A DNA stretch of 64,000 bases, from assembly GCF_000196115.1 (NCBI RefSeq), contig NC_005027.1, forward strand, positions 6,196,001 to 6,260,000, given 5' to 3'. Below, one piece after another: positions 14 to 5,997 of this stretch (position 1 is its first letter; every line of letters starts with the position of its first letter). The notes beneath the pieces were generated by a model. That model searched no databases and had not been told where the DNA came from. It saw only the letters and a program-made list of their open reading frames with translations. The translations under genes were made by a program, and so were the position numbers. This stretch comes from Rhodopirellula baltica SH 1 (GTDB lineage Bacteria > Planctomycetota > Planctomycetia > Pirellulales > Pirellulaceae).

Positions 14-161
14 CGATCGACGAAGTTGTGACCAGAGGGTTTTACGGTGCTCTACCACTGAGCTACGGCGCTGCAATCTCGCGAATGGCAGTTGCGCCGG
101 TGGGACTCGAACCCACGACACCCGGCTCCTGAAGCATGTACTCCGAATCGGCAGTCGATCG
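14..161 (-). tRNA. Permuted tRNA unit 1, anticodon CAG
   Basis: On the minus strand the order is scaffold leader, tRNA 3' half, linker, tRNA 5' half, scaffold tail, so the tRNA is circularly permuted. The outer helix pairs CGATCGAC with GTCGATCG (8 bp). The 3' half has T arm GTGGG-TTCGAGT-CCCAC and acceptor strand CGGCGC. The 5' half has the matching GCGCCG, a normal D arm and then CCG. Joining CCG to the GC after the leader's ACAT restores a perfect anticodon stem CCGGC/GCCGG around loop TTCAGGA. Anticodon CAG would read Leu CUG, but the variable loop is only five bases, unlike normal tRNA-Leu. Whether it is processed to a working tRNA is unknown. Confidence 0.75.
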
Positions 162-171
162 TGTGCGCTTT

Positions 172-465
172 CTATTTCGTTTTCTTCTTGGTGGTCTTTC
201 CCATTTGTTTCCAAAGGGAACGGCCGTTGTCTCGGTCGAGCCGGACGAGTTGTTGCTGTCGTGTGTCGAAGGCAATCAGGTTTCCCTTGGGACGCTTCGC
301 GTAAACGAACGGCAAGCAAACGGCGATGACTTTGTGCGGTTCGCCGGCTGCGCGAGGCAAGTAGCGAAGTCGAACAAGTTCGTCGATAGGTTGCGAGATG
401 CCAGAGCAGTCCCATAAGTAGGACGGAAGCTCGATGATCTCGCTGAGGATGGTGGGAAAACGCGA
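172..465 (-). pseudogene. Open frame without a start codon, between permuted units 1 and 2
   Basis: A 97-codon frame is open from a TAG inside the tail of permuted unit 2 to a TAG at 172-174. It encodes a protein-like sequence (SEIIELPSYLWDCSGI, later VIAVCLPFVYAKRPKGN, ending KQMGKTTKKKTK). No ATG or GTG lies in its first 60%; the first possible start is a TTG at 360. The upstream end abuts unit 2, so the gene may have lost its 5' part when that unit was inserted. I do not recognise the family. The lysine-rich C-terminus suggests nucleic-acid binding, which is inference only. It may equally be expressed from the TTG as about 62 residues. Confidence 0.4.
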
Positions 466-594
466 CTAACGAAGTGGTTGATCAGAGAAAATGTTCTGCC
501 AATTAAACTACGAGCGAACCGAAGCTTGCTCGGTGGGAATCGAACCCACACCTTTCGATTAAGAGTCGATGTACTCCGATGCGGCAGTTAGTCG
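463..594 (-). tRNA. Permuted tRNA unit 2, tRNA-Lys-like, anticodon CTT
   Basis: The outer helix pairs CGACTAAC with GTTAGTCG. The 3' half follows the leader's ACAT: CGA, loop CTCTTAA, TCGAA, then T arm GTGGG-TTCGATT-CCCAC and CGAGC. The 5' half has GCTCG, D arm GTTT...GAAC, then ATT. Joining TT to CGA gives a perfect stem TTCGA/TCGAA with the classic Lys loop CTCTTAA (anticodon CTT). CGAGC and GCTCG pair within this unit and do not match the neighbouring units. The acceptor end is closed by a C(TTCG)G tetraloop instead of ending in CCA. Confidence 0.8.
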
Positions 595-603
595 TGTACG
601 GTG

Positions 604-738
604 GGCGACGAAGTTTGTGGCCAGAGGTTTTTTCCTGAGCTATCGGCGTTCCTTGTGGATACCGAGCGGGGCTTGAACCCGCGACCTCGTCGCTCTCACG
701 ACGCGCTCTAACCTATGTACTCCGAACCGGCAGTCGCC
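604..738 (-). tRNA. Permuted tRNA unit 3, break in the D-loop
   Basis: The outer helix is GGCGAC/GTCGCC. Here the permutation point lies in the D-loop: the 5' half ends at TAGCTCAG and the 3' half starts AGGTTAGAGC, which together form a standard D arm. The anticodon hairpin is CGTCG-TGAGAG-CGACG, with a six-base loop rather than seven. The T arm is GCGGG-TTCAAGC-CCCGC. Acceptor strands TCGG and CCGA pair inside the unit, and the helix continues to a loop ACAA. The centre of the loop reads GAG, but with a six-base loop the amino acid cannot be assigned safely. Confidence 0.7.
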
Positions 739-762
739 TTGTATTGTTGTTGTGTGTAAAAA

Positions 763-896
763 CGATTGACGAAGTTTGTTAATCAGACAGATTCGATGCT
801 CTACCAACTGAGCTACGAAGCGAACACAAGGTTCACTTCGGTGGGACTCGAACCCACGACACCCGATGTGATGTAGTCCGATTAGGCAGTCAATCG
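763..896 (-). tRNA. Permuted tRNA unit 4
   Basis: The outer helix is CGATTGAC/GTCAATCG. The 3' half has T arm GTGGG-TTCGAGT-CCCAC and acceptor strand CGAAGTGAAC. The 5' half begins GTTCGCTTCG and has a standard D arm (TAGCTCAGTTGGTAGAGC). The two acceptor strands make a 10-bp helix capped by CTTGT, entirely inside this unit. In the scaffold, inner helix GAG/CTC of other units is replaced by GAC/GTC, a compensatory change. The exact join in the anticodon arm (TCGA... with ...TCGG) is ambiguous, so the anticodon is not called. Confidence 0.7.
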
Positions 897-904
897 TGTA
901 TTGG

Positions 905-1035
905 TGGCGACGAAGTTCTGGACCAGAGGTTTCTGTCTGAGCTACCACTTGCTTTCGCAGCGGACGGGAATCGAACCCGCGACCTCGTCACTCGCGTGAC
1001 GCGCTCTCCCATGTACTCCGAACCGGCAGTCGCCA
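905..1035 (-). tRNA. Permuted tRNA unit 5, break in the D-loop
   Basis: The outer helix is TGGCGAC/GTCGCCA. The 5' half ends TAGCTCAG and the 3' half starts GGGAGAGC, so the break is in the D-loop as in unit 3. The anticodon hairpin CGTCA-CGCGAG-TGACG again has a six-base loop. The T arm is GCGGG-TTCGATT-CCCGT. Acceptor strands CCGCT and AGTGG pair, then a bulged A and a C(GAAA)G-type GNRA tetraloop close the end. Amino acid identity is not assignable. Confidence 0.7.
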
Positions 1036-1060
1036 TGTGTTGTTGTTAGCGGGATCAAAA

Positions 1061-1204
1061 ACGACTGACGAAGTTTTGACCAGAGAATCTATCCTGCGTG
1101 TCTTCCAATTCCACCACAACGATCTTGCGATCGCTGGCGGGACTCGAACCCGCAAGGCTTGTAGGCCACAGAAGCCCATGTACTCCAAATCGGCAGTCAG
1201 TCGT
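1061..1204 (-). tRNA. Permuted tRNA unit 6, tRNA-Leu-like
   Basis: The outer helix is ACGACTGAC/GTCAGTCGT (9 bp). The 5' half has the leucine-type D region TGGTGGAATTGG followed by GACACGC. The 3' half has a class II variable arm and T arm GCGGG-TTCGAGT-CCCGC. Acceptor strands CAGCGATC and GATCGTTG pair over 8 bp and are joined only by a GCAA tetraloop. The anticodon stem is CAGGA/TTCTG; the loop sequence depends on the exact splice point, so the anticodon is not called. Confidence 0.75.
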
Positions 1205-1214
1205 GTTTTGTAAA

Positions 1215-1338
1215 TGGCGACGAGGTAATGACTCAGATCACTAACGCATAGGAATCGAACCTACCGATCGTGTTGCCACGATCCCCAGACTCACTGGACG
1301 CAATCATTGGTGGATGGATTCCAAGCCGGCAGTCGCCA
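1215..1338 (-). tRNA. Scaffold unit 7 with a tRNA-like insert in normal order
   Basis: The leader and tail match the other units and the outer helix is TGGCGAC/GTCGCCA. The insert is not permuted: a short D arm CCAG-TGAGT-CTGG comes first, then an anticodon-like hairpin GATCG...CGATC, then T arm GTAGG-TTCGATT-CCTAT. The insert's ends (CACCAA... and ...TTAGTG) can pair imperfectly, so the tRNA fold seems to be attached through its acceptor stem. The anticodon is uncertain and a working tRNA is doubtful. Confidence 0.5.
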
Positions 1339-1350
1339 TGTTTTGTAAAA

Positions 1351-1528
1351 GTCCAACGAAGTTGTTTGCCGAGAAAACCGCTCTTATCGACAGCAATGCC
1401 GTCGACAGTGGGCGCACGACGACGATCCTCATGGAGATTCATCGACGCTCACGCTGCTTCCGGTCGCCCGGAAGCTCGATACCTTAGGGTCCTCATAGTT
1501 AGGATGTATTCCCAGCAGGCAGTTGAAC
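1351..1528 (-). ncRNA. Scaffold unit 8 with a larger structured insert
   Basis: The outer helix GTTCAAC/GTTGGAC (one G-U pair), leader and tail (TTCTCGGC...ACTTCG) define a unit like the others. The inner pair GAA/TTC agrees with the scaffold fold. The insert is about 125 nt, longer than a tRNA, and includes a strong hairpin CTTCCGG-GCGA-CCGGAAG with a GNRA loop and a T-loop-like TATCGAG. I cannot fit a full cloverleaf in either order. It may be a decayed class II tRNA or a different RNA carried in the same scaffold. Confidence 0.45.
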
Positions 1529-1538
1529 TTTGTGTTGT

Positions 1539-1611
1539 GATCGACCAGCGAAGGTTTTGAATCAGACGGTTCTTTAGCAAAGATGTATTCCGATTCGTCA
1601 GTTGGTCGATC
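1539..1611 (-). ncRNA. Empty scaffold unit 9
   Basis: The outer helix GATCGACCA/TGGTCGATC (9 bp), leader (ACTG...TCGG, AATACAT) and tail (CCGTCTGATT, CCTTCG) match the permuted units. In place of a tRNA there is only a small hairpin CTTT-GCT-AAAG. It lies directly downstream of tRNA-Cys on the transcribed strand. This shows the scaffold can exist without its tRNA cargo. Confidence 0.6.
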
Positions 1612-1614
1612 AAG

Positions 1615-1685
1615 AAACGCTGGTGGGAGTCGAACCCACTTAAACCGGGTTGCAGCCGGCCGCCTAGCCATCTGGCTCCAGCGTT
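1615..1685 (-). tRNA. tRNA-Cys (GCA)
   Basis: Normal-order cloverleaf. Acceptor AACGCTG/CAGCGTT, D arm GCC...GGC, anticodon stem GCCGG/CCGGT around CTGCAAC (anticodon GCA), and T arm GTGGG-TTCGACT-CCCAC. Position 8 is G rather than the usual U. Confidence 0.8.
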
Positions 1686-1687
1686 TT

Positions 1688-1761
1688 GTTGCTCGCGGGG
1701 TTGCCACGAGCGAGTTTCGTTCAGTCGTCGTCCCTAAAAGTAGTCGTCGCGATTGACGCCA
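1688..1761. other. Spacer between tRNA-Cys and the SEC-C gene
   Basis: No tRNA or scaffold element is visible. A hairpin GCTCG...CGAGC at about 1691-1712 follows the SEC-C gene on the minus strand and could act in transcript processing or termination; there is no clear U tract. Confidence 0.3.
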
Positions 1762-1926
1762 TCACAGACGCCCCGATCGTAGGCAACAACGTTTGAACCG
1801 CTGACCGCTGCCGCATGGGCACAGGTCGTTTCGGCCGAGTTTCTCCTCGAGTTGCTTGCCTTGGATGATTCGGACTCCGCGTTTGACTTTCGTTTCTGAC
1901 GGGTAGCCCTTACGACGTTTGCTCAT
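1762..1926 (-). CDS. Small SEC-C motif zinc-binding protein
   Basis: A 54-residue protein starting ATG at 1926, too short for usual ORF cut-offs. It has a basic N-terminus ([17 protein letters not shown]) and ends in a SEC-C motif, [19 protein letters not shown], with the Cys-x-Cys...Cys-Cys zinc ligands. In SecA and other proteins this motif binds one zinc ion and contacts ribosomes or partner proteins (known family). Here the motif is almost the whole protein. It lies inside the tRNA array between empty scaffold unit 10 and tRNA-Cys. A link to RNA or ribosome binding is inference. No strong ribosome-binding site is visible. Confidence 0.75.
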
Positions 1927-2023
1927 CGGCTCGAAAGCAGAGGTCTTCGTCGCGGAAGTGTTGGTGTTCGTATCGCATCGTTCTGCTCCGGTTTGAGTGT
2001 GAAAGTGTTGATGTGGGTAAAGA

Positions 2024-2092
2024 CCGATCGGCGAAGGTACAACTCAGAGGGTTCACATTTTCAAGATGTAATCCGAGTCTGCAGTCGATCAG
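2024..2092 (-). ncRNA. Empty scaffold unit 10
   Basis: The leader (ACTGCAGACTCGGA, TTACAT) and tail (CCCTCTGAG, CCTTCG) match the scaffold. The outer helix CTGATCGAC/GCCGATCGG pairs with one G-U and one mismatch. The cargo position holds only a hairpin ACAT-CTTGAAA-ATGT. It lies directly downstream of tRNA-Arg(GCG) on the transcribed strand, as unit 9 lies downstream of tRNA-Cys. Confidence 0.55.
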
Positions 2093-2096
2093 TCAG

Positions 2097-2169
2097 TGCT
2101 CTCGCCAGGAATCGAACCTGGTCTACGACCTTCGCAAAGTCGCGTGCTATTCCGGCACACTCCGAGAAC
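2097..2169 (-). tRNA. tRNA-Arg (GCG)
   Basis: Acceptor GTTCTCG/CGAGAGC, anticodon stem CGACT/GGTCG with loop TTGCGAA (anticodon GCG), T arm CCAGG-TTCGATT-CCTGG. GCG is unusual in bacteria, which normally read CGU/CGC with an A34-to-inosine tRNA-Arg(ACG). Confidence 0.8.
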
Positions 2170-2177
2170 ATTTTGAG

Positions 2178-2249
2178 TAACCCGCCCAGGAATCGAACCT
2201 GGTCCGACAGTTTCGAAGACTGTCATGCTATCCAGCACACCCGCGAGTC
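2178..2249 (-). tRNA. tRNA-Arg (TCG)
   Basis: Acceptor GACTCGC/GCGGGTT, anticodon stem ACAGT/ACTGT with loop CTTCGAA (anticodon TCG), T arm CCAGG-TTCGATT-CCTGG. Confidence 0.85.
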
Positions 2250-2281
2250 ATTTGATTGGTTTGTTCATTCATAGTCACAAG

Positions 2282-2355
2282 AGCCGACGACTGGGTTCGC
2301 ACCAGCATGGGTCGCTTTACAAGAGCGGTGCCTTTCTGCATCGAGCCACGTCGGC
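2282..2355 (-). tRNA. tRNA-Thr (TGT)
   Basis: Acceptor GCCGACG/CGTCGGC, anticodon arm with loop CTTGTAA (anticodon TGT). The T-loop is TGCGAAC rather than the usual TTC start, and the D-loop lacks the GG pair. Confidence 0.8.
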
Positions 2356-2372
2356 TTGAGTTGTCGCATCAG

Positions 2373-2444
2373 TAGCCCGACCAGGAATCGAACCCGGAAC
2401 TTCTGGTTAGAAGCCAGAGATGATGTCCGTTTCACCATCGAGCC
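2373..2444 (-). tRNA. tRNA-Arg (TCT)
   Basis: Acceptor GGCTCGA/TCGGGCT, anticodon stem TCTGG/CCAGA with loop CTTCTAA (anticodon TCT), T-loop TTCGATT. Confidence 0.85.
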
Positions 2445-2456
2445 ATTACAAACAAG

Positions 2457-2542
2457 CGGAAGGCGAGGGAGTCGAACCCTCATCACCCGAAGTTGGCACG
2501 CGTTAGCAGTGCGGCCCGGCAAACCGTATCCGGCTGCCTTCC
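2457..2542 (-). tRNA. tRNA-Ser (GCT)
   Basis: Acceptor GGAAGGC/GCCTTCC, discriminator G, anticodon loop CTGCTAA (anticodon GCT), long variable arm as expected for serine, T arm GAGGG-TTCGACT-CCCTC. Confidence 0.9.
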
Positions 2543-2556
2543 GTAAACTATCTCAG

Positions 2557-2628
2557 TGGACCAGAAGGGAATCGAACCCTTCCACCGACTTTGCAAGAGT
2601 CAGTCGCCGCCTTGGAACATGCCAGCCC
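2557..2628 (-). tRNA. tRNA-Ala (TGC), copy 1
   Basis: Acceptor GGGCTGG/CTGGTCC with the G3-U70 pair that marks alanine, anticodon stem TGACT/AGTCG with loop CTTGCAA (anticodon TGC). The D arm is weak (GTT/GAC). Confidence 0.8.
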
Positions 2629-2643
2629 ATTTGTTTTCATCAG

Positions 2644-2714
2644 AGGTCCGTCCGGGAATTGAACCCGGTCTTCGTCCATACCACAGACGCGTGCTGCCGC
2701 AACACTTACAGACC
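2644..2714 (-). tRNA. tRNA-Thr (GGT)
   Basis: Acceptor GGTCTGT/ACGGACC, anticodon stem CGTCT/GGACG with loop GTGGTAT (anticodon GGT), T arm CCGGG-TTCAATT-CCCGG. Confidence 0.85.
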
Positions 2715-2725
2715 GTTTGCTTCAG

Positions 2726-2798
2726 TGATCACGGATGGAATCGAACCATCGGTCTCCTGCTTGTCACACAGGCGTCTTAGCCGCTGGACCACGCGATC
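2726..2798 (-). tRNA. tRNA-Val (GAC)
   Basis: Acceptor GATCGCG/CGTGATC, anticodon stem CCTGT/GCAGG with loop GTGACAA (anticodon GAC), T arm GATGG-TTCGATT-CCATC. Confidence 0.85.
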
Positions 2799-2808
2799 GT
2801 TTTGTGAG

Positions 2809-2884
2809 TAGTCGAGACAGGAGTCGAACCTGCAAAATCACAAGCCTCTCATGCTTGCCGCTTTGCCTGTTTGCGTACTCGACC
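2809..2884 (-). tRNA. tRNA-Leu (GAG)
   Basis: Acceptor GGTCGAG/CTCGACT, anticodon stem CAAGC/GCTTG with loop ATGAGAG (anticodon GAG). The variable region is only about seven bases, short for leucine. Confidence 0.8.
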
Positions 2885-2893
2885 ATCGGAAGT

Positions 2894-2960
2894 AGCGGAT
2901 CCGGGGGTCGCACCCGACGTGCCTGGCATATGAAACCTGGCTAGGCACTGGCCCATCCGC
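2894..2960 (-). tRNA. tRNA (CAT), short D-loop, copy 1
   Basis: A 67-nt tRNA with acceptor GCGGAT/ATCCGC, mini D arm GGC-CAGT-GCC, loop TTCATAT (anticodon CAT) and T-loop TGCGACC. It is a close relative of the next gene. One of the two may be elongator Met and the other Ile (modified CAT); I cannot tell which. Confidence 0.75.
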
Positions 2961-2979
2961 GTTGTTGTCGCATTGAAGT

Positions 2980-3045
2980 AGCGGGTTCGGGGGTCGCACC
3001 CGACGGTCCAGGCTTATGAGGCCCGGATGAGCCTGGCTCACCCGC
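2980..3045 (-). tRNA. tRNA (CAT), short D-loop, copy 2
   Basis: A 66-nt tRNA with acceptor GCGGGT/ACCCGC, mini D arm GAGC-CAG-GCTC, anticodon stem CGGGC/GCCTG with loop CTCATAA (anticodon CAT) and T-loop TGCGACC. Met or Ile2; neither has initiator features. Confidence 0.75.
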
Positions 3046-3057
3046 ATCGTTGAAAAG

Positions 3058-3141
3058 TAGCCAAGGCGAGAGTTGAACTCGCACGCCGCTGTGGGCACGA
3101 CATTCTGAGTGTCGCGTGTCTACCAGTTCCACCACTTGGCT
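3058..3141 (-). tRNA. tRNA-Leu (CAG)
   Basis: Acceptor AGCCAAG/CTTGGCT, TGGTGGAACTGG leucine D region, anticodon stem CGACA/TGTCG with loop CTCAGAA (anticodon CAG), long variable arm. Confidence 0.9.
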
Positions 3142-3154
3142 GTTTGGATCGAAG

Positions 3155-3228
3155 TACTGCGGGAGGGAGTCGAACCCTCAAACACGAACGTTTGAAATTC
3201 GCCGCTTTGCCGGTTTGCGTACCACAGC
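3155..3228 (-). tRNA. tRNA-Leu (CAA)
   Basis: Acceptor GCTGTGG/CCGCAGT, anticodon stem CGAAT/GTTCG with loop TTCAAAC (anticodon CAA). Its D region (TACGCAAAC) and short variable loop resemble tRNA-Leu(GAG) upstream, suggesting a local duplication. Confidence 0.8.
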
Positions 3229-3240
3229 TTGTTGATTGAG

Positions 3241-3312
3241 TACTGAGGGCGGGAGTCGAACCCGCAAGCACTTGTTCCTAAGACAAGCGGCTCGCCGTTG
3301 GCCTACCTCAGC
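3241..3312 (-). tRNA. tRNA-Leu (TAG)
   Basis: Acceptor GCTGAGG/CCTCAGT, anticodon stem CTTGT/ACAAG with loop CTTAGGA (anticodon TAG), T arm GCGGG-TTCGACT-CCCGC. Confidence 0.85.
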
Positions 3313-3317
3313 GTGAG

Positions 3318-3388
3318 TGGAGCACCGGGGAATCGAACCCCGATTTTCTGCGTGCAAAACAGATGTCTTCCCGTTGGACGAGCGCCCC
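3318..3388 (-). tRNA. tRNA-Ala (TGC), copy 2
   Basis: Acceptor GGGGCGC/GTGCTCC with G3-U70, anticodon stem TCTGT/GCAGA with loop TTTGCAC (anticodon TGC), T arm CGGGG-TTCGATT-CCCCG. Confidence 0.85.
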
Positions 3389-3406
3389 ATGTTGTTTTGT
3401 TATCAG

Positions 3407-3480
3407 TGCCCAGAGCAGGAGTCGAACCTGCGAACACTCGGGTTTAAGTCGAGCCGCTCGGCCGGTTGGCGTATCTAAGC
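3407..3480 (-). tRNA. tRNA-Leu (TAA)
   Basis: Acceptor GCTTAGA/TCTGGGC, anticodon arm CTCG...CGAG with loop CTTAAAC (anticodon TAA) and an A-C mismatch closing the loop. The variable loop is short for leucine. Confidence 0.75.
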
Positions 3481-3499
3481 GTTGATCGCTGGTGCCGCT

Positions 3500-3529
3500 G
3501 GGAAGGACGCGACCGACCGCGTCCTTCCC
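3500..3529. terminator. Perfect 12-bp hairpin after the embedded array ORF
   Basis: GGGAAGGACGCG and CGCGTCCTTCCC are perfect inverted repeats around six bases. The hairpin lies 15 bases past the stop of the ORF at 3545-3814 on the minus strand. No U run follows, so it may be a processing site or transcript stabiliser rather than a simple terminator. Confidence 0.45.
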
Positions 3530-3544
3530 TTGGCTGCCAACGTG

Positions 3545-3814
3545 TTACGCATGCAGGCGCGGCGTGCTATCGCCGGTCGACTTGCGATGGTTCTTGATCG
3601 CCTTGTGCGAATCAGGGAGTTGGTCGCCTTCGATGATCACGTCACCGACACATTCGACCACCCAGCCATCGACCCAACCGACGTTGTCGTCTTTCAACCT
3701 CAGGACGCGGCCGATCTTCGCAAACTCTTGCGGGATGTACGATGTCGTTCGCACTGATCCGCCGGCGATGTTGCGTCTCATCGCACATTGCACGTACTTC
3801 ACATTTCTGGACAT
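3545..3814 (-). CDS. Small basic protein of unknown function inside the tRNA array
   Basis: An 89-residue protein starting MSRNVKYVQCAMRR and ending STGDSTPRLHA. A strong ribosome-binding site, AAGGAG, sits seven bases before the ATG, which supports real expression. The middle (EFAKIGRVLRLKDDNVGW then VDGWVVECVGDVI) looks like a small beta-rich fold. The C-terminus is rich in Lys, His and Arg. I do not recognise the family. It sits between tRNA-Leu(TAA) and tRNA-Val(TAC) with a hairpin on each side, as a cargo gene of a mobile tRNA array might. Confidence 0.7.
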   Translation of the reverse strand: MSRNVKYVQCAMRRNIAGGSVRTTSYIPQEFAKIGRVLRLKDDNVGWVDGWVVECVGDVIIEGDQLPDSHKAIKNHRKSTGDSTPRLHA

Positions 3815-3838
3815 CGTCGTTCTCCTTGGTTAATTGCG

Positions 3839-3864
3839 GGCCAGCGTCACCGTGACGCCGGCAG
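3839..3864. repeat. Hairpin upstream of the array ORF
   Basis: GCCGGCGTCA and TGACGCTGGC (minus-strand reading) form a near-perfect hairpin between tRNA-Val(TAC) and the ribosome-binding site of the 3545-3814 ORF. It may separate tRNA processing from the mRNA. Confidence 0.4.
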
Positions 3865-3936
3865 TAGTCCCGGATGGAATCGAACCATCGTTTCCTGCGT
3901 GTAAAACAGGTGTCGTCGCCGTTGGACCACAGGACC
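3865..3936 (-). tRNA. tRNA-Val (TAC)
   Basis: Acceptor GGTCCTG/CGGGACT, anticodon stem CCTGT/GCAGG with loop TTTACAC (anticodon TAC), T arm GATGG-TTCGATT-CCATC. Confidence 0.85.
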
Positions 3937-3955
3937 ATGTTGTCGATCCGAAGAG

Positions 3956-4026
3956 CACGTCCCCAAGGATTTGAACCCTGACTAACTGGTTTGGAATCAG
4001 TAGTGCTACCGTTACACCAGAGACGT
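3956..4026 (-). tRNA. tRNA-Trp (CCA)
   Basis: Acceptor ACGTCTC/GGGACGT, discriminator G, anticodon arm ACTG...CAGT with loop TTCCAAA (anticodon CCA). Confidence 0.8.
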
Positions 4027-4046
4027 GTGAAACTTTTCAAAACAAG

Positions 4047-4131
4047 TGGGAACGCAAGGAATCGCACCTCTCGCCGACTACCACACAATTAAAGGCAGAA
4101 GGGTTACAACCTCCCGTGTGGAAACGCTCCC
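4047..4131 (-). tRNA. tRNA-Tyr (GTA) with a reduced D arm
   Basis: Acceptor GGGAGCG/CGTTCCC, anticodon stem GGAGG/CCTTC with loop TTGTAAC (anticodon GTA), class II variable arm starting GCC and closing GGC. Only about ten bases lie between acceptor and anticodon stem, so no normal D arm can form. The T-loop TGCGATT is also atypical. Confidence 0.7.
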
Positions 4132-4149
4132 AATACTTCATCGAACAAG

Positions 4150-4233
4150 CGGAAGCCGTGGGACTCGAACCCACAACGGTGATTTGCCGCAGCTGTTTTC
4201 AAGACAGTGTCCTCATCCGGCCGGGTGACTTCC
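4150..4233 (-). tRNA. tRNA-Ser (TGA)
   Basis: Acceptor GGAAGTC/GGCTTCC, discriminator G, anticodon stem ACTGT/ACAGC with loop CTTGAAA (anticodon TGA), long variable arm, T arm GTGGG-TTCGAGT-CCCAC. Confidence 0.88.
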
Positions 4234-4254
4234 GTAGTGCGTCATTGAACGCAG

Positions 4255-4329
4255 TGACGTGAGCGGGAATCGAACCCGCGGACTCCTGGATGAAAACCAG
4301 ACGATTCTGCCATCAGAATCTACCACGCC
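4255..4329 (-). tRNA. tRNA-Glu (TTC)
   Basis: Acceptor GGCGTGG/TCACGTC, D arm GATT...AATC, anticodon stem TCTGG/CCAGG with loop TTTTCAT (anticodon TTC). Confidence 0.85.
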
Positions 4330-4354
4330 GTTTGGTTGCTTCGATCGAAGCGAG

Positions 4355-4426
4355 TACCGCATAGGAGTTTCGATCTCCTTCCTGCTGCCTGAGAAGCAGC
4401 CGACCTAGCCAGTAGTCGAATGCGGC
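4355..4426 (-). tRNA. tRNA-Glu (CTC)
   Basis: Acceptor GCCGCAT/ATGCGGT, D arm GAC...GTC, anticodon stem GCTGC/GCAGC with loop TTCTCAG (anticodon CTC). The T-loop is ATCGAAA. Confidence 0.85.
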
Positions 4427-4436
4427 GAATTAAAAG

Positions 4437-4509
4437 CGATGGCAACGGGAGTCGAACCCGCAGCGACTTGATAGACAATCAAGCTTCCTTCCCAGAGGAA
4501 ATTGCCACC
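4437..4509 (-). tRNA. tRNA-Asp (GTC)
   Basis: Acceptor GGTGGCA/TGCCATC, discriminator G, D arm TTTCC...GGAAG, anticodon stem CTTGA/TCAAG with loop TTGTCTA (anticodon GTC). Confidence 0.85.
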
Positions 4510-4525
4510 GAAAATGTTCGCGTCA

Positions 4526-4599
4526 GGTGACCGATCGGAATTGAACCGACATGGACTTCGTTCACAGCGAAGTTCCTGAAACCAATACAGGACGGCCAC
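4526..4599 (-). tRNA. tRNA-His (GTG)
   Basis: Acceptor GTGGCCG/CGGTCAC with discriminator C as in tRNA-His, anticodon stem CTTCG/CGAAG with loop CTGTGAA (anticodon GTG). Confidence 0.88.
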
Positions 4600-4601
4600 A
4601 G

Positions 4602-4675
4602 CTCCATAGGCTGGAATCGAACCAGCGGCAAACTGATTAACAGTCAGTCCGAGCCACCAACGGCTCCCCCATGGA
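4602..4675 (-). tRNA. tRNA-Asn (GTT), copy 1
   Basis: Acceptor TCCATGG/CTATGGA, anticodon stem ACTGA/TCAGT with loop CTGTTAA (anticodon GTT), T arm GCTGG-TTCGATT-CCAGC. Confidence 0.87.
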
Positions 4676-4691
4676 TTATGGATTCAAACAG

Positions 4692-4766
4692 CACCGGAGA
4701 TTGGAATCGAACCAATGAACTCCTGATTCAGAGTCAGGTGCAGCGACCAACAACTGCTACTCCGGC
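4692..4766 (-). tRNA. tRNA-Gln (CTG)
   Basis: Acceptor GCCGGAG/CTCCGGT, D arm GCAG...CTGC, anticodon arm CTGA/TCAG with loop CTCTGAA (anticodon CTG). Confidence 0.85.
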
Positions 4767-4785
4767 GTGCATCAAACTTGCAAAG

Positions 4786-4853
4786 CACTCCGTCCGGGAA
4801 TTGAACCCGACCTGCGAGCTTCAAAGGCTCACGTCGCGACTACGCGCCGGAGA
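4786..4853 (-). tRNA. tRNA-Gln (TTG)
   Basis: Acceptor centred on CTCCG/CGGAG with weak outer pairs, short D-loop, anticodon stem TGAGC/GCTCG with loop CTTTGAA (anticodon TTG), T arm TCGGG-TTCAATT-CCCGG. Confidence 0.8.
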
Positions 4854-4872
4854 GAGTTTTCAACAATGGAAG

Positions 4873-4944
4873 AGTGTCCTGTGGGAGTCGAACCCACCTA
4901 GCCGGATTGGAAGTCCGGAACCTTTGCCGCTCGGGCAAGGACAC
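4873..4944 (-). tRNA. tRNA-Gly (TCC)
   Basis: Acceptor GTGTCCT/AGGACAC, anticodon stem CCGGA/TCCGG with loop CTTCCAA (anticodon TCC), T arm GTGGG-TTCGACT-CCCAC. Confidence 0.9.
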
Positions 4945-4951
4945 TGAATAT

Positions 4952-5025
4952 GCGGAAGTTTGAAGGGCGAGGTGTGAAACGAAGCGAGCTATCTCACACT
5001 TCTCGCTTCACCCTTCAAACTTCGC
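4952..5025. repeat. Long imperfect inverted repeat between tRNA genes
   Basis: GCGGAAGTTTGAAGGG pairs with CCCTTCAAACTTCGC, and inside it GCGAGGTGTGA pairs with TCACACTTCTCGC. The whole 74-bp element can form one long hairpin. It looks like a small palindromic insertion rather than a tRNA. Confidence 0.6.
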
Positions 5026-5029
5026 GAAG

Positions 5030-5101
5030 CTCCGGCGGATGGACTCGAACCATCACTCGTCTCCTTAACAGGGAGCCGCCTTACCATTGGGCCACACCGG
5101 A
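5030..5101 (-). tRNA. tRNA-Asn (GTT), copy 2
   Basis: Acceptor TCCGGTG/CGCCGGA, anticodon arm CTCC/GGAG with loop CTGTTAA (anticodon GTT), T arm GATGG-TTCGAGT-CCATC. Confidence 0.85.
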
Positions 5102-5109
5102 TTCTGCAA

Positions 5110-5180
5110 AGCGCCCAGTGGGAGTCGAACCCACACTTCCGCCATGGCAAGGCAGCAGGCTACCGCTACATCATGGGCGC
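5110..5180 (-). tRNA. tRNA-Gly (GCC)
   Basis: Acceptor GCGCCCA/TGGGCGC, D arm with TAGCGGTAGC, anticodon stem CTGCC/GGCGG with loop TTGCCAT (anticodon GCC). Confidence 0.88.
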
Positions 5181-5232
5181 AAAAATGCATCACTACCAAA
5201 TTGTCAAAGATCAATACGCCGAAGCGCTCAAG

Positions 5233-5304
5233 AGCACCGAGCCGGAATCGAACCCGCATCACCTCGCTCGCGACGGAGGAGTCTTGCCGTTAGACCATCA
5301 GTGC
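5233..5304 (-). tRNA. tRNA of unclear identity, atypical anticodon loop
   Basis: Acceptor GCACTGA/TCGGTGC, D arm GGTC...GACT and T-loop TTCGATT are clear. The anticodon arm forms only CCTC/GAGG around a ten-base loop CGTCGCGAGC, so the anticodon cannot be placed. CGC or GCG are possible readings. The loop recalls those of permuted units 3 and 5. Confidence 0.6.
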
Positions 5305-5324
5305 TTGTTTCAAAATGTCTCAAG

Positions 5325-5397
5325 TGGGATCGGTGAGAATCGAACTCACATCGCTCGGATTAAGAGTCCGATGCATTACCTTGTCTGCCACAATCCC
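5325..5397 (-). tRNA. tRNA-Lys (CTT)
   Basis: Acceptor GGGATTG/CGATCCC, anticodon stem TCGGA/TCCGA with loop CTCTTAA (anticodon CTT), T arm GTGAG-TTCGATT-CTCAC. Permuted unit 2 carries the same loop on a different body. Confidence 0.9.
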
Positions 5398-5410
5398 ATG
5401 TGTCGTTTTA

Positions 5411-5469
5411 GTGGGGTAAGCTTCCAGCTTGCCGTTGTTTGTAATTCGCAGGCTGGAAGCCTACGCCAC
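5411..5469. repeat. REP-like palindrome
   Basis: AAGCTTCCAGC and GCTGGAAGCC are inverted repeats flanked by GTGG and CCAC. A related element (GGCTTCCAG...CTGGAAGCC) lies at 16627-16686, so this is a dispersed palindromic repeat. Confidence 0.6.
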
Positions 5470-5474
5470 GTCAG

Positions 5475-5547
5475 TCGGCGTGGCGGGAATTGAACCCGCG
5501 ACCGTCGCCTTATAAGGACGCCGCTCTTACCCCTGAGCTACACGCCG
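5475..5547 (-). tRNA. tRNA-Ile (TAT)
   Basis: Acceptor CGGCGTG/CACGCCG, D arm GCTC...GAGC, anticodon arm with loop CTTATAA (anticodon TAT), T arm GCGGG-TTCAATT-CCCGC. TAT is rare in bacteria, which mostly read AUA with a lysidine-modified CAT tRNA. Confidence 0.82.
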
Positions 5548-5558
5548 ATGTGTAGCGA

Positions 5559-5631
5559 TGGGGCCGAAGGGAGTTGAACCCTCACCGAACGGATTAAAAG
5601 TCCGTCATGCTGCCAGTTACACCACAGCCCC
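5559..5631 (-). tRNA. tRNA-Lys (TTT)
   Basis: Acceptor GGGGCTG/CGGCCCC, anticodon stem ACGGA/TCCGT with loop CTTTTAA (anticodon TTT), T arm GAGGG-TTCAACT-CCCTT. Confidence 0.9.
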
Positions 5632-5708
5632 GATGTTCAATCGCGGCTATGCGTTTCAAACGCAGTTCAGTAAGCATGTTTGTTTCTCTTTCGTGTTGTT
5701 GTCGTAAG

Positions 5709-5780
5709 TGGTAGCCCCGAGGATCGAACTCAGCGCGACCCGCGTATCAGGCGGATTTGGGCGACCAGCCCTCGACTACC
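5709..5780 (-). tRNA. tRNA-Ile (GAT)
   Basis: Acceptor GGTAGTC/GGCTACC, very short D arm GGGC-TGGTC-GCCC, anticodon stem TCCGC/GCGGG with loop CTGATAC (anticodon GAT). Confidence 0.85.
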
Positions 5781-5798
5781 GTTGTCGTTTCAAAAAAG

Positions 5799-5871
5799 TC
5801 GGACACCTCGGAGTCGAACCGAGACCCTCCTGGTCCCAAACCAGGCGTGCTTCCATCTGCACCTGTATCCG
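5799..5871 (-). tRNA. tRNA-Pro (TGG)
   Basis: Acceptor CGGATAC/GTGTCCG, anticodon stem CCTGG/CCAGG with loop TTTGGGA (anticodon TGG), T arm CTCGG-TTCGACT-CCGAG. Confidence 0.9.
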
Positions 5872-5925
5872 ATGTTGTTTGTTCTCGCCGCGGATGATTC
5901 CGTCGGCGCATATCTTCCTTGTCAG

Positions 5926-5997
5926 TGGGCCGGGAGGCGCTCGAATCCTCGTCTGCGGTTCTTCAGACCGCCGCTAGACCGTCTCAGCTACCAGCCC
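5926..5997 (-). tRNA. tRNA-Phe (GAA), first tRNA of the array
   Basis: Acceptor GGGCTGG/CCGGCCC, D arm GCT...AGC, anticodon stem GCGGT/ACCGC with loop CTGAAGA (anticodon GAA). It is the 5'-most tRNA of the minus-strand array. Confidence 0.87.

Follow-up and report, generated by a model that had tools for sequence, protein, structure and literature searches.

A stretch of 64,000 nucleotides of the Rhodopirellula baltica SH 1 genome (hereafter the window; positions 6196001-6260000 of a 7.1 Mb genome assembled as one contig) carries on its minus strand, at positions 14-2091, ten units that share one scaffold (u1 to u10), with two further units just left of the window. We consider it very probable that this array is a series of tandem genes predicted to make bacterial Y RNAs (of the YrlA and YrlB types), of which those with a tRNA-like module likely imitate tRNAs and likely do not work as translating tRNAs. 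YrlA is a bacterial Y RNA that combines a Ro60-bound stem with a tRNA-like end. Chen et al. 2014 and Sim et al. 2020 are reportedly the founding papers of this field.

In u1 to u6 the leader is followed by the tRNA 3' half, a linker, the tRNA 5' half and the tail, so that the T arm and the 3' strand of the acceptor come first, then the linker, the 5' strand of the acceptor and the D arm (or its 5' part). The ten window units have in common a leader (CUGCC N5 GGA N UACAU, with deviations) and a tail (UCUG ... CYUCG), and each is closed by an outer helix whose sequence changes from unit to unit. A permuted tRNA-like module was found at the far end in 7 of the 12 units of the locus (Table 1). The anticodon-stem reading of u6 was made by hand from the sequence and not by the parser, and the loop lengths of u3 and u5 were likewise read from the sequence. 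A first reading of this DNA (the sequence-only reading) had spoken of ten units: the shared scaffold does extend to u7 to u10, but these were not recognised as permuted tRNAs, and no T loop was found in u8 to u10. u7 may be a tRNA-like unit of normal order, a reading examined in eight rows, one of which (L142) was a wrong stretch.

Table 1. Predicted Y RNA units, tRNA array and Ro60 gene of the R. baltica locus (window positions unless another frame is named)
Feature	Position	Strand	Description	Basis
u1	14..161	-	YrlA-type; Y stem enters anticodon stem after tRNA position 29; joined arm CCGGC-UUCAGGA-GCCGG	Rfam YrlA E 2e-8, 45.9 bits; 5/5 anticodon-stem pairs on joining; covariation in 30 homologues
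u2	463..594	-	YrlA-type, tRNA-Lys-like; split after position 28; anticodon loop CUCUUAA	Rfam YrlA E 0.025; 5/5 anticodon-stem pairs; exact join read as tRNA-Lys (ctt) by ARAGORN
u3	602..740	-	Y stem enters D loop; anticodon arm whole, loop of 6 nucleotides	acceptor 6/7
u4	763..896	-	nearest to the Rfam YrlA model; Y stem in place of anticodon loop	Rfam YrlA E 5.1e-10, 51.4 bits; acceptor 7/7
u5	904..1036	-	Y stem enters D loop; anticodon arm with loop of 6 nucleotides	acceptor 5/7
u6	1062..1203	-	tRNA-Leu-like body, long variable arm; Y stem in anticodon loop	acceptor 7/7
u7	1214..1339	-	scaffold, T arm and hairpins; permuted acceptor not resolved	tRNA-Sec E 0.11; similar units in relatives
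u8	1350..1529	-	scaffold with long non-tRNA insert	fold z -4.47
u9	1542..1608	-	short-loop unit, YrlB-like by architecture	without Rfam match
u10	2025..2091	-	short-loop unit, YrlB-like	Rfam YrlB E 0.11, 23.8 bits (cut-off 97)
Two units left of the window	G000:C1 6195853-6195968 and 6195621-6195760
tRNA array	1614..5997	-	34 ordinary tRNA genes; upstream of the Y RNA units, interleaved at its end	ARAGORN
Ro60 gene	L010:9880-11538	-	next gene downstream of the leftmost units	vWA E 8.3e-14, TROVE E 1.2e-6

Four units matched the Rfam YrlA model in Infernal searches (E 5.1e-10, 2e-8, 1.3e-3 and 0.025, none reaching the cut-off of the family) and u10 weakly matched YrlB (E 0.11), with the stems of the YrlA model lying in register in u4 and in the leftmost unit. 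Traits of YrlA that were found here include a closing helix formed by both ends together with an inner helix, and, in u1 to u6, permuted tRNA-like T, acceptor and D arms (u3 and u5 being opened in the D loop). The Y stem replaces the anticodon loop in u4 and u6, but not in u1 and u2 (which keep the anticodon hairpin) or in u3 and u5; we know of no source that makes this replacement defining for YrlA, though the family consensus shows it. The genomic company points the same way: the Ro60 vWA search gave no second match in the genome, the sole one adjoining the array, and the R. baltica protein is 97-98% identical to the Ro60 of Rhodopirellula rubra, R. maiorica and Neorhodopirellula pilleata. 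When the whole order was scanned with the YrlA model, 36 of 196 genomes matched (4 over the cut-off), and a Ro60 coding stretch is contained in 27 of the 30 listed YrlA loci of the order, including all four that passed the cut-off; the leader of these four reads GAAUGCNGANGGAACUACAU and is similar to that of the R. baltica array. The sequence-only reading had known of no bacterial counterpart, a claim that no longer stands, since the bacterial Y RNA YrlA is itself a circularly permuted tRNA mimic: in the part of a structural benchmark that deals with permuted RNA pairs, 81 of 99 are circular permutations between 6CU1, a bacterial Y RNA, and tRNAs (PMC11472068). YrlA has also been recorded in a mycobacterial prophage and in mycobacterial genomes (PMC8190616 and PMC9569102).

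Several results weigh against this identification. Every window unit scores below the cut-offs of YrlA (69 bits) and YrlB (97 bits), the YrlA model places its outer stem in register in neither u1 nor u2, 6 of 14 unrelated control genomes also give weak YrlA matches (E up to 0.001, none over the cut-off), and a scan for the unit core finds no unit in the eight best-scoring YrlA loci (L130-L137). Because the scores remain under the Rfam cut-off, we file the array as a YrlA-type variant and not as a member of RF02553, and because weak matches occur in controls, the identification rests on the sum of YrlA architecture, adjoining Ro60 and relatives. Kinship to L130-L137 likewise rests on leader similarity and Ro60, not on the same pattern, given the outcome of the core scan there.

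Relatives of the array were collected with a Ro60 alignment, which retrieved 80 planctomycete loci (the best 80 of 106, some genomes contributing two) and 9 viral loci. The set of 315 units used below comes from the R. baltica locus and these loci only (L010 and L160-L248), where units occur in 75 of 90 loci and number up to 12 per locus; over a wider range of loci the core scan gave 383 matches in 93 of 122 (duplicates included) and none on reversed sequence. Homologous units thus occur in further bacteria and on a phage contig. At least one unit lies upstream of Ro60 in 70 of the 80 planctomycete loci, and among the 55 loci with at least 2.5 kb of upstream sequence, 52 have at least one unit, 47 at least two and 34 at least four. 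Sorting of the 315 units gave 42 split in the anticodon stem with the loop kept, 39 with acceptor, D and T arms in which the anticodon part is lost or reduced, 27 minihelices, 11 split in the D loop, 23 permuted in other ways, 31 with a T-loop motif in which the acceptor was not parsed, 88 with a short loop and 54 others. A TTTT follows within 11 nucleotides of the unit in 158 of the 315 (5 at the control place), which suggests that the units may have separate 3' ends.

The permuted order itself, with the 3' half ahead of the 5' half, was borne out by the parsing of u1 to u6, in which both acceptor strands were located without use of their pairing and 6, 6, 6, 7, 5 and 7 of the 7 acceptor positions pair. 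In the related loci the strands could be located in this way in 94 of the 315 units; in these, a mean of 6.03 of 7 positions pair. Among 43 consecutive parsed pairs from related loci, the own acceptor strand paired better than that of the next unit in 38, equally well in 5 and worse in none (mean pairs of 7: own 6.28, next unit 4.19, shuffled 4.16), so that the earlier statement that acceptors match within units and not between neighbours holds. The same comparison bears on the idea that the units are tRNAs of normal order with long introns, in which the 5' half of one unit would belong with the 3' half of its neighbour. In some loci (L132, L133, L134, L135) the Rfam tRNA model can reach across adjacent YrlA units, but pairing with the next unit equals that of shuffled strands and never exceeds the own pairing (in L010 and L160-L248, a range that does not take in L132-L135), and we give this idea practically no credence.

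ARAGORN recognised none of the 142 permuted inserts as they stand and none with shuffled halves, but 75 of the 142 once rotated. Two controls count against leaning on this program for detail, as it also accepted mismatched halves from different units (21 of 136, 28 of 136 and 24 of 137) and 29-41 of 42 junctions that had been shifted; for this reason ARAGORN does not fix the exact junction. Joining the halves restores perfect anticodon stems in u1 and u2, as the sequence-only reading had it. For u3 and u5 the same reading had expected standard D arms; D-stem strands (GCUC and GAGC) do sit on the two halves, but the anticodon loops have 6 nucleotides, and these units would therefore not make standard tRNAs.

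Covariation was followed in an alignment of u1-type units (A2), which takes in 30 of the 35 units whose split follows position 29; five were left out by judgement for odd lengths or misread 5' halves (L168:9241-9445, L171:1826-2030, both of L180, L222:3571-3704), so that its counts represent the more regular rows. In this alignment 96.2% of the cells pair (shuffles 85.3%, slid versions 32-52%), and both sides have changed in 20 of 28 pairs (7.8 in shuffles, at most 9 in slid versions). The conserved leader and tail with a changing yet pairing outer helix also stood up: compensated changes occur at all 7 outer pairs in the 30 homologues, where outer pairing (5 of 7) was itself a search criterion. 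The pairing percentages of outer helix, T stem, acceptor and anticodon stem are favoured in that these elements were partly selected by parsing thresholds, a bias that does not touch the comparison of own and next acceptor or the loop positions. The inner stem (P2) is paired at 0.698, against 0.562 when tails are exchanged (231 of the 315 units, those with a UCUG tail).

In 42 units from 34 loci the entry point of the Y stem lies within the anticodon stem, behind position 28 or 29, and the 3' half keeps the whole loop of 7 nucleotides. They derive from the 142 permuted units through 55 with an anticodon parse (51 of them with at least 4 of 5 pairs), of which 13 with splits at 0, 1, 4 or 5 were left out; two of the 42 (L168 9247 and L171 1832) have misread 5' halves. 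The pairs across the junction are CCG:CGG in 27 units, TT:AA in 3, ACG:CGT in 2 and TCG:CGA, GCG:CGC, TTG:CAA, CT:AG and GC:GC in one each, being imperfect or misread in the other 5; in A2, two of the three cross-junction pairs are invariant and one shows four compensated rows. Although loop identity played no part in finding the units, U33 is present in 41 of the 42 (24 of 25 distinct loops), and position 37 holds a purine in 40 (again 24 of the 25), while positions 34-36 vary widely (entropies of 1.64-1.93 bits, 16 triplets). Since U33 and the purine are kept while 34-36 change, the loop itself may be read by something. No anticodon hairpin appears in the Rfam YrlA consensus (alignment), and we take u1, u2 and their kin to be a YrlA variant, predicted to fold as a three-way junction that leaves the anticodon hairpin free. 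Folding speaks against this structure, as the minimum-energy fold of u1 does not give the junction with its hairpin, is not of tRNA form and is no better than shuffles (z -0.61, the weak end of a range of single-unit values that reaches -4.47 in u8).

Circularly permuted tRNA genes are established in some algae and one archaeon. The units could accordingly be read as working genes of this sort, their transcripts being cleaved at the acceptor end, with enzymes joining the anticodon halves into translating tRNAs; ARAGORN reads 40 of 42 exact joins with the expected anticodon, U33 and the purine at 37 are kept, and the genome has two genes of the RtcB ligase, both away from the array locus. We nevertheless hold this to be very unlikely. 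The tRNA-splicing endonuclease PF01974 gave no match in the genome (four archaeal controls were positive), anticodons differ between homologous units of similar body and include stop-reading ones (tta, tca), and the 41 scattered chromosomal tRNAs that were fetched already cover 40 anticodons. The acceptor pair 1-72 is missing in 22 of 30 u1-type rows, the same scaffold bears minihelices, D-loop splits and inserts without a tRNA part, and the nearest genomic tRNAs are only 77% (u1; chromosomal tRNA-Asp) and 73% (u2; chromosomal tRNA-Lys) identical to the joined units. With these as the best identities, u1 and u2 were also rejected as recent copies of tRNAs of the genome itself.

The sequence-only reading had likened the layout to a permuted intron-exon gene that would give a circular tRNA; leader and tail would then be a small intron that splices itself. 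The two do flank the halves as a split intron would, but together they measure about 50 nucleotides and occur without any exon to splice (88 of the 315 units have only a short loop); the window units gave no Rfam group I match at E up to 10 and a single weak group II match across u3 and u4 (19.3 bits, cut-off 49), the genome has no match to a tRNA-splicing endonuclease, and the units match YrlA and YrlB and adjoin Ro60. We find this explanation scarcely credible and prefer that of Y RNA genes.

The tRNA array upstream of the R. baltica units has partial counterparts in the relatives. Of the 39 genome loci with at least 6 kb of upstream sequence, 20 have at least 10 tRNA genes; 19 have fewer than 10, and 10 have none, a result that counts against the association and makes the link to tRNA arrays less than universal. 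The array in the window includes an amber-reading tRNA (cta; 2456-2542, ARAGORN). A second tRNA cluster lies elsewhere in the genome (G000:C1 425584-427552; L249 9583-11552), with 14 genes of mostly the same isotypes and order as part of the window array and with flanking open reading frames that by eye resemble transposases; no Y core (up to 3 mismatches) was found in the 16 kb examined around it.

Among the viral loci, a contig of 35 kb (L240) carries 32 tRNA genes, 5 units and Ro60, together with open reading frames that by eye resemble a peptidyl-tRNA hydrolase and the tape-measure protein of a phage. Three of seven viral Ro60 loci that are more distant (L241-L246 and L248) have 22-35 tRNA genes within the stretch covered; in the seven, the core scan gave one low-scoring match (L242), Rfam Y RNA models gave none at cut-off in six of the seven, and none at E up to 1 in the parts searched of two. 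In L241, L242 and L248 (viral contigs of 74-275 kb) Ro60 lies near tRNA arrays that include a transfer-messenger RNA gene. A pattern scan of viral sequences returned at least 120 stretches; of these, contig 3300049594_000559 (L009, L013) was the one examined, most of the others being probably chance matches, and on it an open reading frame after Ro60 resembles, by eye, peptidyl-tRNA hydrolase (L013 2033-2464). Contig 3300044797_000094 was also returned independently as a Ro60 match (L247), with one unit. TROVE proteins are known from jumbo phages and from tRNA-carrying Borgs (PMC7824862 and PMC11208441).

Other genes accompany the locus. Between u2 and u1, the minus strand of the window encodes at 172-460 the C-terminal part of a small basic protein whose start is missing here; a protein of this kind (about 120 amino acids) stands at the same place in the relatives L161, L162, L164 and L206 and, more diverged, in L168. 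Downstream of Ro60 (L010 8385-9786, minus strand) follow a weak metallophosphoesterase match, below the cut-off, and a gene of the Endonuclease V family; in the close relative L206 the metallophosphoesterase match at the same place is above the cut-off. Open reading frames just after Ro60 match Shedu (SduA) and type I restriction (HsdR-like) proteins in L199 (11952-13298) and L162 (12029-15436), which hints at defence islands, while 8 other scanned neighbours have no such matches. A PTH2-type peptidyl-tRNA hydrolase follows Ro60 in L193 (9764-10162).

Set beside known systems, the units share with YrlA (RF02553; Salmonella structure 6CU1) the closing stem of both ends, the position beside Ro60 and the circular permutation of T arm, acceptor and D arm with a capped acceptor. 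They differ in that up to 12 different units occur per locus, scores stay under the family cut-off, the anticodon hairpin kept by u1 and u2 is absent from the RF02553 consensus, and the opening of u3 and u5 lies in the D loop. The short stem-loop of u10, with UGC and a GGAUUACAU leader (alignment), recalls YrlB (RF02565), but the match is weak (23.8 of 97 bits) and only part of the array has the short-loop form. With algal and archaeal permuted tRNA genes the units have in common the 3' half before the 5' half and a linker that joins the acceptor ends; unlike those genes, they come without a splicing endonuclease that we could find, their conserved flanking stem also occurs alone, and the product is likely no translating tRNA. 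The 34-gene array, and a similar one in the unit-bearing phage contig, resemble the tRNA array units of mycobacteria (with their plasmids and phages) and the cyanobacterial trn operon, but the array here leads into Y RNAs and Ro60. As in the Salmonella rsr-yrlBA-rtcBA operon, Ro60 and Y RNAs occupy one locus, whereas in R. baltica that locus has no rtcB and far more Y RNAs.

The arrays of many Y RNAs, the units that keep an anticodon loop, the type opened in the D loop and the frequent neighbouring tRNA arrays look new. A literature search returned no paper on many-Y-RNA arrays, on anticodon-keeping Y RNAs or on a link between Ro60 and tRNA arrays, and, as it covered few subscription papers, it is weak evidence of novelty.

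We infer from the genes, their covarying predicted structure and the company they keep that the units would be transcribed, would bind Ro60 and would act in one of the ways considered here. Each RNA would be anchored to the Ro60 ring by its Y stem, while its tRNA-like end would serve as a handle seen by tRNA-binding proteins. As a platform, such ends may bring tRNA-modifying or RNA-degrading enzymes to Ro60, as published for YrlA, an RNA with D, T and acceptor arms that serves DusA and TruB as a substrate and is found in association with Ro60 (Rsr) and PNPase (PMC8394870). Within the Y RNA explanation we see even chances that the ends are structural platforms only, their tRNA fold being what modification enzymes, PNPase or the gating of the Ro60 hole require. 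Anticodon loops would then be retained for folding, and the ends would have no part in decoying; the many units without an anticodon loop agree with this, but the conservation of U33 and the purine at 37 beside changing 34-36 suggests that the loop is read.

Alternatively, the tRNA-like ends may soak up tRNA-attacking enzymes, and the units that keep an anticodon loop could decoy anticodon nucleases, with the neighbouring tRNA genes as a spare set; since U33 is kept and 34-36 are free to change, these units fit such a use best. In its full form this would be a panel of decoys held by Ro60, by which planctomycetes and their phages keep varied tRNA impostors as traps for anticodon nucleases and make good the loss of tRNAs from the neighbouring array, a scheme that we regard as speculative and rather unlikely. 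tRNA mimicry as a competitive inhibitor of anticodon nucleases has already been suggested (PMC7790460); tRNA arrays are regarded as putative antidefence (PMC12803027), resistance to anticodon nucleases is the predicted role of phage tRNAs (PMC10264068), and in Anabaena one tRNA array is repressed together with rtcB (PMC10272220).

For the role of tRNA-like ends in bacterial Y RNAs, the R. baltica locus offers many natural variants side by side, and it makes the ideas of a platform and of an anticodon-nuclease inhibitor directly testable. It also ties Ro60 to tRNA arrays in planctomycetes and in some phages. Were the decoy panel true, the locus would be a combined shield against attack on tRNAs, some of its impostors having live anticodon loops whose anticodons change fast.

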